Shown here: piece after piece, positions 57,325 to 60,901 of the stretch
How positions within the stretch are numbered: position 1 is the stretch's first letter
Layout of the letters: each line of letters starts with the position of its first letter
Source: Loktanella atrilutea
GTDB taxonomy: Bacteria > Pseudomonadota > Alphaproteobacteria > Rhodobacterales > Rhodobacteraceae
DNA length: 64,000 nucleotides
NCBI RefSeq assembly: GCF_900128995.1
Contig: NZ_FQUE01000003.1
Span: 124,001-188,000 of the forward strand
Reading direction: 5' to 3'
The notes under the pieces: generated by a model
Database searches by the model: none
Told to the model about the DNA's origin: nothing
The model's input: only the letters and a program-made list of their open reading frames with translations
Program-made: the position numbers and the translations under genes

Positions 57325-58716
57325 ATGACCCTCCACGATCTGGACGCCCTGCAGGACCGGGAACGCAGCAACTGGGTTCGGCTACGGACCCTGCTGATTT
57401 TGCGCTGGTTCGCCATTGGCGGGCAGATCGTGGCAATCCTCGTCGCCACGCGGGTCTACGACTTGCGGATGGATGCCGGGCCTCCGGCAATCACCATCGG
57501 CGCCGCGATCCTTGCCAATCTGGTCAGCAGCTTCGTCTATCCGGAAAGTAAGCGGCTGTCGGAACGCGAGGCAAGCGCGATGATGGCTTTCGACATCGTG
57601 CAGCTGACGCTGCTTCTGTATCTGACCGGCGGATTGAACAATCCTTTCGCCCTGCTGATCCTTGCACCAGTGACCATTGCCGCCACGGTCTTGCACCTGA
57701 TGAGCTTCGTCGCGCTCGGGCTTCTGGCAATTGTCATGATTTCCATCATTGGAACGGTGGCCGTGCCGCTGCAGATGGCGGACGGCACCTTGCTGTTGCT
57801 GCCACCGCTATTCCATTTCGGCTTCTGGGTGTCCTTGGTAATCGGCGTGATCTTCCTGGGCATCTATGCCCGTCAGGTCACGACAGAGATGAACGCCATG
57901 GGTGATGCCCTGCTCGCAACGCAGATGGCTTTGGCCCGCGAACAGAAGTTGACTGATCTTGGCGGTGTCGTCGCCGCCGCGGCGCACGAACTTGGCACAC
58001 CCTTGGCGACGATCAAACTGGTCAGCAACGAGTTGCTGGAGGATCTGGCCGACCAACCGGAATTGCGCGAGGATGCCCTGCTGATCCGGACGCAGGCGGA
58101 CCGATGCCGCGACATCCTTCATTCCATGGGACGCGCCGGCAAGGATGACCTGCACCTGCGCACCGCTCTGCTGGAAACCGTCGTGCGTGAATCCGCAGAG
58201 CCGCACCTGCAGCGCGGTCGCGACGTGACCTTTGATATCGCACCTGAATCCAGCTGCGACAGCGCTCAGCCCGTAATCTCTCGGCGGCCAGAGATCATTC
58301 ACGGCTTGCGCAACCTGATCCAGAATGCGGTCGATTTCTCGGAAACGAGGGTCGAAATCGACGTGAACTGGTCGGATACACAGGTATTCGTGCGGATCGC
58401 GGACGACGGTCACGGGTTTCCCCAATCAGTTATCGGCCGCATCGGAGACCCGTTCGTACGACGGCGGCGCGGATCGCTGGACGGTTTGCGCCGTCCCGGT
58501 TACGAGGGCATGGGCCTTGGGCTGTTCATTGCAAAGACGTTGCTGGAAAGGTCTGGCGCGCAATTGTCCTTTGCGAACGGGCCGCGGCGACGGCGACGGG
58601 CAGAAGGTATCGTCGCGGGTGCAATCGTGACGGTGACATGGCCGATGCGCGTTCTTGTCCGGGGACAAAGCGGGGCCTATCCACCGTTGGGAAAAAACCA
58701 ACCAATTCTAGAATAG
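57325..58716 (+). CDS. regB: Redox sensor histidine kinase RegB/PrrB
   Basis: 463 aa. About six transmembrane helices (25-180) with the quinone-sensing motif GGLNNPF at 102-108. The H-box is HELGTPLATIKL with His221. The redox-active Cys is conserved as Cys261 in ADRCRDIL. The ATP-binding N box NLIQNAVDFSET, the G1 box DDGHGFP and the G2 box GMGLGLFI complete the kinase. It phosphorylates RegA when respiratory electron flow drops. The C-terminus is extended by ~20 residues past the kinase fold. Confidence 0.96.
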   Translation: MTLHDLDALQDRERSNWVRLRTLLILRWFAIGGQIVAILVATRVYDLRMDAGPPAITIGAAILANLVSSFVYPESKRLSEREASAMMAFDIVQLTLLLYLTGGLNNPFALLILAPVTIAATVLHLMSFVALGLLAIVMISIIGTVAVPLQMADGTLLLLPPLFHFGFWVSLVIGVIFLGIYARQVTTEMNAMGDALLATQMALAREQKLTDLGGVVAAAAHELGTPLATIKLVSNELLEDLADQPELREDALLIRTQADRCRDILHSMGRAGKDDLHLRTALLETVVRESAEPHLQRGRDVTFDIAPESSCDSAQPVISRRPEIIHGLRNLIQNAVDFSETRVEIDVNWSDTQVFVRIADDGHGFPQSVIGRIGDPFVRRRRGSLDGLRRPGYEGMGLGLFIAKTLLERSGAQLSFANGPRRRRRAEGIVAGAIVTVTWPMRVLVRGQSGAYPPLGKNQPILE

Positions 58717-58726
58717 TTCAGGATTG

Positions 58727-58741
58727 TTAAGCAGACGTTAA
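58727..58741 (+). promoter_or_regulatory. Perfect CtrA-binding site (TTAA-N7-TTAA)
   Basis: TTAA at 58727-58730, seven bases (GCAGACG), TTAA at 58738-58741, continuing as TTAACC as in the full CtrA half-site. It is the only perfect TTAA-N7-TTAA box I noticed in an intergenic region of the window, and lies 47 nt before the DivL-like ATG, at typical promoter distance. Confidence 0.75.
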
Positions 58742-58788
58742 CCTCAACCCCAGATTGTCGGGCAAGGACAACCGGGAGAATCGCGGTG

Positions 58789-60396
58789 ATGTTGAGTCTG
58801 GACGTTTTACGCCTTGCTGCCGCTGGGGGACTTGTGGCCGTGGGACTGTTTTGTGCATTTCAGTCCGTCCGATCGCTCCTGATAGCGAGGCCCAACGGCA
58901 ATGCGCAGCGACTTCCCGAGGTGTCGGCACCGGCCTTTTTGTTTCAGGGCGATATGCTGATTGATGCGTCTCCAAGTGGAGCGGCACTGATCGCCGTCGC
59001 GGCCGACGACAGGAACGAGCGTGCCGCCCTTCTCCATGTACTCGAACCGCAGTTTCCGGACCTGCGCGATCGACTACAAGACCTTAGACCCGGCGACAGG
59101 ATAAGGATCCAATCGGCTGTCGATTCCGGTCTGTCGTTGATTCTTGCAATGATGGACGGTCTTGTCCGCATCACGCTGGAGGAGGACGGTGGCGTCCAGT
59201 CCGTGTCACGGACCTGCAGCGACATCGAACGCGCATCCATGTTGGACGAACTCAATCTGCTGCGGCTGATCATGCGCGACACGCCTCAGCTGATCTGGCG
59301 AGAGGATGGTCAGGGCCAACTGACCTGGGCCAATGCGGCCTATCTGTCCTATGCCGACCGACTGATGCCCGATGGCGAACGACGCGGGCAGGTCTGGCCG
59401 GGAGAGAGACTCTTTCCCGAAATCCAGCCGCCGCTGCCAACCGATCCGCGCACCTTCGAAGGGCGTCAGGCCCTGCAGCTTCCCGGTGAAAAGGCGGAGC
59501 ACTGGTTCGAGATTACCGCCGTGCCGCAGGATGGTTCGGTGATTTATTACGCGATCGACGCAAACGCGACTATCCGGGCCGAACGCGCGCAATTTGATTT
59601 TCAACAGACGCTCGGCAAGACCTTTGCGCAACTGTCGACGGGACTGGCTATCTTCAACAAGAAGCGGCAGCTGACGATGTTCAATCCGGCATTGCTGGAC
59701 ATGACGGGCCTGCCCTTTGCATTCATGTCGACGCGGCCCAGCATTGAAAGAGTGCTGGACCGTCTGCGCGAAATGCGCAGATTGCCAGAACCCAAGAACT
59801 ACGCCACATGGCGGGAACAATTTGCCGCGCTGGAGGCTGCCGCGCAGAGTGGCACATATTCCGAAAACTGGGACATGCCCGATGGCCAGACCTATCGCGT
59901 CTCGGGACGACCGCATCCGGACGGGGCCATCGCGTTCCTGTTCGAGGACATCAGTGCAGAGATATCTCTGACCCGTCGCTTCAGGACGGAAATCGAGTCC
60001 GGTCAGGCCGTTCTGGACGCCCTTCCCGACGCTATCGCGGTGTTTTCGTCCAGCAATACGCTGACCATGACCAATGTGGCCTACGACCAGCTATGGCAGT
60101 CCGACGACGAGCCGCAAATGACGGTCCACGACCTGCGCGGGGCATTGCGGATGTGGAAATCCCGGGCAGCCTCAACCACGCTATGGCGAGAGATCGAGGA
60201 TTTCGGTCGCCTGCGGCATGACCGTGCAATGGTGCGGGATCAGCTTGTATTGCATACCGGGCGCCGGATGAATTGCGAAATCATGGCGATCAGTGGCGGC
60301 ATGACGATGATCCGCTTCACCGTCAGCACGGAACGTTTGACAGCGCCGCTGAGTGCGCGCTTGAAGACTTCGGGCGAGCGCCTCGCCACGGGTTGA
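58789..60396 (+). CDS. divL: PAS-repeat membrane protein, DivL-like, without a kinase domain
   Basis: 535 aa from ATG 58789 (a GTG at 58786 is possible; GGGAGAATCGC upstream). One transmembrane helix at about 3-24. Residues about 150-260, 265-385 and 385-500 form PAS-like modules (LIMRDTPQLIWREDGQGQLTW; FAQLSTGLAIFNKKRQLTMFN; LDALPDAIAVFSSSNTLTMTN). No histidine phosphotransfer or ATP-binding domain follows. From memory, Rhodobacter DivL is a PAS-domain protein acting on CckA-ChpT-CtrA, and the tsaE-amgK-murU-addB context fits. The identification is inference. A perfect CtrA box precedes it. Confidence 0.65.
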   Translation: MLSLDVLRLAAAGGLVAVGLFCAFQSVRSLLIARPNGNAQRLPEVSAPAFLFQGDMLIDASPSGAALIAVAADDRNERAALLHVLEPQFPDLRDRLQDLRPGDRIRIQSAVDSGLSLILAMMDGLVRITLEEDGGVQSVSRTCSDIERASMLDELNLLRLIMRDTPQLIWREDGQGQLTWANAAYLSYADRLMPDGERRGQVWPGERLFPEIQPPLPTDPRTFEGRQALQLPGEKAEHWFEITAVPQDGSVIYYAIDANATIRAERAQFDFQQTLGKTFAQLSTGLAIFNKKRQLTMFNPALLDMTGLPFAFMSTRPSIERVLDRLREMRRLPEPKNYATWREQFAALEAAAQSGTYSENWDMPDGQTYRVSGRPHPDGAIAFLFEDISAEISLTRRFRTEIESGQAVLDALPDAIAVFSSSNTLTMTNVAYDQLWQSDDEPQMTVHDLRGALRMWKSRAASTTLWREIEDFGRLRHDRAMVRDQLVLHTGRRMNCEIMAISGGMTMIRFTVSTERLTAPLSARLKTSGERLATG

Positions 60397-60436: not shown

Positions 60437-60901
60437 ATGTCACAGTTCGCCTGCATACGCCTCGAAGACGAGGCCGCCACGGCCGCTATTGCGGGTCAGA
60501 TCGCGGCAAGGCTTGGACCCGGCGACACGCTCCTGCTGGAAGGGCCGATCGGTGCGGGCAAGACCACCTTTGCCCGCGCCTTGATCCGTGCCCGGCTGGG
60601 AAGACCACAGGAAGACGTTCCCTCACCGACTTTCACGCTCGTGCAGACCTACGAGGCCGATGGGGTGGAGATCTGGCATTGCGATCTCTACCGGCTGACG
60701 GATAGTCAGCAAATTTTCGAGCTTGGTCTGGAAGACGCCTTTGCCACCGCGATCTGCCTGATCGAATGGCCCGACCGGCTGGGACCGGACCTGCCTGCCG
60801 ATGCGCTGATTTGCTGCTTTGAAGCGGGAACAGGGCATCACGATTTGACCCTCTGCGGGTCCGATACATGGCAGGCAAGACTGGAGGCCATGCATGACTG
60901 A
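60437..60901 (+). CDS. tsaE: tRNA threonylcarbamoyladenosine biosynthesis ATPase TsaE
   Basis: 154 aa. Walker A in LEGPIGAGKTTFARALI (near residue 40), switch region PSPTFTLVQTYE, HCDLYRL and IEWPDRLG. It is the ATPase that recycles the TsaB-TsaD complex in t6A synthesis; tsaD is at 49497 in this window. It overlaps the following kinase gene by 8 nt. Confidence 0.95.
   Translation: MSQFACIRLEDEAATAAIAGQIAARLGPGDTLLLEGPIGAGKTTFARALIRARLGRPQEDVPSPTFTLVQTYEADGVEIWHCDLYRLTDSQQIFELGLEDAFATAICLIEWPDRLGPDLPADALICCFEAGTGHHDLTLCGSDTWQARLEAMHD

Follow-up and report, generated by a model that had tools for sequence, protein, structure and literature searches.

The window analyzed here, a 64-kb stretch of the Loktanella atrilutea genome, encodes regA and senC on its minus strand; these are followed by four plus-strand genes, namely regB, divL, tsaE and one of the APH family. 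Between regB and divL lies a sequence of the full TTAA-N7-TTAA type, which we predict to be a CtrA site (Table 1). The box begins 10 nt beyond the regB stop codon and ends 44 or 47 nt ahead of divL, depending on whether the GTG or the ATG is taken as the start. Its next base is a C, so the stricter pattern TTAA-N7-TTAAC is also satisfied.

Table 1. Features of the regB–divL–tsaE region, in window coordinates
Feature	Position	Strand	Basis
regB, directly upstream of divL	57325..58716	+	NF045988, E 3.7e-223
Predicted CtrA box, TTAA-N7-TTAA, TTAAGCAGACGTTAA	58727..58741	.	Sequence
Putative –10 element of the divL promoter, AGATTGTC	58752..58759	+	84-locus box-anchored profile; weak match in the window
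Ribosome-binding-site-like GGGAG	58774..58778	+	Sequence
divL, short form, 536 aa from GTG 58786 (535 from ATG 58789)	58786..60396	+	ORF, Pfam, profile search, AF2
N-terminal membrane helix, residues 2–33	58789..58884	+	AF2 model; hydropathy maximum 2.06
PAS-like fold 1, residues 50–133	58933..59184	+	AF2; outside the best Pfam stretches
PAS fold 2, residues 169–258	59290..59559	+	Pfam, AF2
PAS fold 3, residues 285–388	59638..59949	+	Pfam, AF2
PAS fold 4, residues 416–513	60031..60324	+	Alignment, AF2
tsaE, directly downstream of divL	60437..60901	+	PF02367

This is the sole perfect TTAA-N7-TTAA in the window, and none of 100 dinucleotide shuffles contained one. The window has 22 TTAA, for which 0.0076 pairs are expected per single spacing; among spacings of 0–29, only 0 and 26 occur besides 7, once each. 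The first-pass annotation had noted a perfect CtrA box 47 nt before the gene, and both points hold, the distance being that to the ATG. Because the whole 4.2-Mb genome has 24 perfect sites versus 15 for the reversed pattern, a lone perfect site is weak evidence. It is conservation of the box across family loci, described below, that makes the evidence strong.

Of the other 23 perfect sites in the genome, 10 fall inside ORF calls. Scans of 13 ORFs beside other boxes, in Pfam and/or NCBIfam, returned few informative names, and for this reason the other boxes gave no regulon test. One locus (L047:3026-3076, G000:C26:716225-716275) has a perfect TTAA-N7-TTAA pair with sites 36 nt apart, the closer lying 33 nt ahead of a 412-aa ORF without a Pfam match; this ORF is a candidate CtrA target. 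The same genome encodes CtrA (NF045991, 5.4e-129), ChpT (PF10090) and a hybrid kinase resembling CckA, which combines PAS, HisKA, HATPase and receiver domains and is matched by CckA models below their curated cut-off, and so the phosphorelay gene set (ctrA, chpT and a cckA) is present. One-mismatch boxes lie upstream of ctrA and, read by eye, upstream of cckA (L256:178-192).

Architecture and identity of the kinase-less DivL

In Pfam, the divL product matched PAS_7, PAS_8 and PAS_4, with no match to a kinase domain (HisKA, HATPase) at E up to 1. An AF2 model built from 43 sequences (mean pLDDT 84.7, pTM 0.46) opens with a single N-terminal helix, continues with four PAS-like folds linked by long helices, and closes with a low-confidence tail. 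The fold boundaries in Table 1 are a reading of the AF2 secondary structure, and, with so low a pTM, how the folds are arranged with respect to one another is uncertain. In alignments, kinase-bearing relatives run on into the DHp domain at about the point where the window protein ends. Pfam, alignment and model all show that the classical DHp-CA pseudokinase, in which Tyr takes the position of His, is absent, and they rule out a hidden kinase domain. The protein does have the membrane anchor and tandem PAS domains that are a trait of DivL (AF2, Pfam). Thus, the initial description of a membrane-anchored PAS-repeat protein devoid of kinase modules was correct, and the domain search of 58789-60396 that had been proposed with it matched PAS domains and no kinase domain (Pfam).

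Sequence comparisons identify this protein as the short DivL of Rhodobacteraceae. A family profile, comprising the window protein and longer relatives, found Caulobacter DivL (4q20, 'Sensor protein DivL', 2.1e-15) as the best of 30 PDB matches, with the alignment covering the kinase part of the longer family members. Searched across the class, this profile gave a match in 86 of 144 alphaproteobacterial genomes. The phospho-site was read in the 30 best-scoring loci, of which 27 lie outside Rhodobacteraceae; at these 27, the DHp residue was the Tyr that is the hallmark of DivL in 26 cases and His in one. Identity to the DivL of L. fryxellensis is 65%.

Further evidence comes from four published primers for R. 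capsulatus divL (two for qPCR, two for the promoter), which were compared with all collected loci. Both qPCR primers match the regB-linked divL in four loci, 82 nt apart (best in L058, with 2 + 1 mismatches), whereas the two promoter primers matched none of the divL promoters of the collected loci. From the qPCR primer matches, the experimentally studied R. capsulatus divL, rcc00042, very probably belongs to the regB-linked DivL family. That the protein is some other PAS-repeat protein is very improbable. It is true that no NCBIfam DivL model was matched and that phmmer with the window protein alone found no related PDB chain, the latter because the kinase part is missing. Yet the family profile retrieves DHp-Tyr pseudokinases across the class, its best PDB match, via the longer members, is 4q20, and the R. 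capsulatus qPCR primers match. Foldseek on the AF2 model returned generic multi-PAS chains (PpsR, DosP, FixL) and was uninformative as to family. Taken together, the family profile, the Tyr pseudokinases, 4q20 and the primer matches agree with the earlier proposal that this is the DivL of the organism.

The closest studied counterpart is rcc00042, reported as PAS-only and lacking a kinase domain like the window protein (PMC2877005, PMC9430884); CtrA-dependent expression has been reported for it as well, and it shows no essential difference from the window DivL. Caulobacter crescentus DivL also has multiple PAS domains, and its homology to the window protein runs through the kinase-bearing relatives. 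Unlike the window DivL, it keeps a DHp-CA pseudokinase, in which Tyr550 is reported to read DivK~P (PMC4211667). According to the same source, DivL proteins across the Alphaproteobacteria share this Tyr in all cases but one.

Conservation of the box and its promoter context

For a family-wide view, we used 120 Rhodobacteraceae genomes, 111 of which have a divL homologue; two loci with weak or broken matches were excluded, leaving 109. A same-strand regB match lies upstream of divL in 104 of the 109 loci and a tsaE match is present in 101 of the fetched stretches, with both in 97. regB and divL are codirectional, with a median intergenic distance of 85 nt (99 loci). Outside Rhodobacteraceae, where flanks were short, regB was near divL in one of 27 loci. 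In R. capsulatus, activation of the CtrA regulon by RegA has been reported (PMC7232146), and the regB–divL linkage may therefore carry regulatory meaning.

A perfect box lies within 200 nt upstream of the chosen divL start in 90 of the 109 loci. In the same stretches, control patterns were found in two loci (TTAA with N6) or in none (TTAA with N8, AATT-N7-AATT, TATA-N7-TATA). Between the regB stop and the divL start, the perfect box occurs in 83 of 99 loci, other TTAA spacings of 0–20 in at most 3 each, and 50 dinucleotide shuffles gave a mean of 0.26 boxes and a maximum of 2. Among the 19 loci in which no perfect box was found within 200 nt, 9 have a one-mismatch form (raw count) and 3 (L101, L116, L129) have a perfect box farther upstream. 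Loci from named records showed the box in 78 of 80, a figure skewed to near relatives because only the 80 best of 529 loci were taken. An order-level search of 30 loci, from genomes partly shared with the family set, showed it in 25 of the 29 that were usable. The modest genome-wide excess over the reversed pattern might suggest that two TTAA came together by chance, the intergenic stretch being richer in AT, but the spacing-specific conservation and the shuffle controls refute that reading, leaving it next to no probability. In the literature searched, with subscription papers mostly outside its scope, we found no family-wide count of the box before divL.

To describe the promoter, 84 loci were aligned on the box. 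Its right half reads TTAACCwtt in this profile, and a second conserved motif, roughly CrAAnnTT, lies at +25 to +32 from the box start. The median distance from the box end to the start codon is 47.5 nt in this alignment; that from the regB stop to the box is 21.5 nt among family loci. With the box overlapping the –35, a –10 element would come at the position of CrAAnnTT, and activating CtrA sites have been reported near –35 (PMC6180460). We infer that CrAAnnTT is the –10 element, with the spacing to the box of a class II promoter. For the window, the assignment is putative because its own match is weak. In three loci that lack the divL N-terminus, the box still stands 43 nt (L091), 30 nt (L102) and 37 nt (L121) before the new start. 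These data suggest that the box occupies a conserved, activator-like position.

A predicted CtrA–DivL feedback loop and its evolution

Several of these features have precedents. Brilli 2010 predicted that, in Rhodobacterales cluster B, CtrA controls cckA and divL, and described the DivL of this cluster as lacking a kinase domain (PMC2877005). Vega-Baray 2022 presents short DivL as a trait common in Rhodobacterales, and states that DivK is absent from the order (PMC9430884). In Dinoroseobacter shibae, a CtrA site was reported upstream of divL, whose expression was reduced in ctrA, chpT and cckA mutants (Wang 2014, PMC4046655). Likewise, divL of Rhodobacter capsulatus was down in ctrA knockouts (Fogg 2019, PMC6363796), and in Phaeobacter inhibens only one of two homologues, divL1, was down in ctrA and cckA mutants (PMC12363192). 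D. shibae Dshi_3433 and P. inhibens divL1 are candidate counterparts of the regB-linked divL; a different D. shibae gene, Dshi_3346, has been equated with R. capsulatus divL (PMC6473078). In R. capsulatus, DivL is reported to promote CtrA phosphorylation via CckA (PMC9143464, citing Westbye 2018). The combination of a CtrA box and a kinase-less DivL is therefore an already published feature of Rhodobacterales, of which we describe one more member.

The reading we favor, with considerable confidence, is a positive feedback loop. CtrA~P would bind the box overlapping the –35 of a promoter in the regB–divL intergenic region, and would thereby activate divL. The short DivL would in turn favor, through PAS contacts, the kinase state of CckA, and phosphorylation of CtrA by CckA–ChpT would close the loop. 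For L. atrilutea, CtrA binding at 58727-58741, the direction of its effect and the DivL–CckA contact are predictions; CtrA-dependent divL expression is supported by analogy with the mutants of relatives (PMC4046655, PMC6363796, PMC12363192). The first-pass annotation had likewise suggested a CtrA–DivL feedback loop, a proposal supported by its publication for the order (PMC2877005, PMC9430884) and by the fall of divL in the ctrA mutants of relatives. Another circuit in which CtrA controls a CckA regulator is the Osp–CckA negative feedback of R. sphaeroides. There, the regulator is reported to be a single-domain response regulator that inhibits CckA (PMC9430884), whereas here DivL has this role and we predict a positive sign.

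Two other readings accept the box as real. divL might be transcribed mostly by read-through from the regB promoter, with a small contribution of CtrA, as the codirectional genes and the median intergenic distance of 85 nt would allow. We consider this unlikely, given how strongly the box is conserved and that the divL transcript is CtrA-dependent in relatives. Less likely still is that CtrA bound at the box represses divL or forms a roadblock, limiting, for instance, regB read-through into divL. The closeness of the box to the regB stop, both here and at the family median, would suit such a role. However, the box stays close to the divL start even where the divL N-terminus is missing, a –10-like motif follows it at fixed spacing, and the published mutants have less, not more, divL transcript.

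Five family loci bear a kinase part. Pfam found HisKA in L126, L132, L133 and L134, with an ATPase domain under the cut-off or not found; L227 was judged from its length and DHp alignment. A perfect box was found at none of the five, although L126 has a one-mismatch form. In four of them (L126, L132, L133, L227) the phospho-site is His (SHRLRTP or SHQMRTP), not Tyr, despite the conservation described in PMC4211667; this is possibly a reversion. In a RegB tree with 102 rows and a midpoint root for drawing only, all five lie on one side of a single branch (support 94), which makes a single independent comparison of kinase loss with box gain. Before long DivL genes outside Rhodobacteraceae, a perfect box was found in one of 27 cases in the upstream stretch searched. 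Judging from this rarity and from the lack of a perfect box in the five kinase-bearing members, the perfect box was probably derived within Rhodobacteraceae. Three further loci (L117, L120, L125) encode a long DivL whose kinase region is eroded, without a HisKA match in Pfam, and do have the CtrA box; they are intermediate between the long and short forms.

Shortening of DivL goes further at nine loci (L091, L099, L102, L116, L121, L122, L123, L128, L130), all with a regB match upstream, where the 339–434-aa product starts past the membrane helix and PAS fold 1. The membrane anchor may have been lost repeatedly in these, and the 434–607 nt gaps ahead of the start in L099 and L116 may reflect frame errors. 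In three genomes (G081, G088, G111), divL matches are split into pieces or broken by in-frame stops, possibly decaying copies or assembly errors.

These results place the L. atrilutea genome within the form of the CtrA network already known from Rhodobacterales, and they turn a per-genome prediction, that of a perfect box before divL, into a family-wide one. What is perhaps new is the rarity of the perfect box beyond Rhodobacteraceae and its absence from the five kinase-bearing members, four of which have His. One scenario, which we regard as tentative and somewhat doubtful, places a single origin of the box in the Rhodobacteraceae stem, later than the branching of the kinase-bearing lineages and during the decay of the pseudokinase; forms with an eroded kinase already have the box. 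The amount of DivL, set by CtrA, would then have replaced the docking of DivK~P known from Caulobacter, with transcription replacing phospho-signaling as the input to DivL. The footprint of the box, the putative –10 element and the box-less kinase-bearing lineages would form a concrete series on how the input to a pseudokinase may be replaced by transcriptional control.
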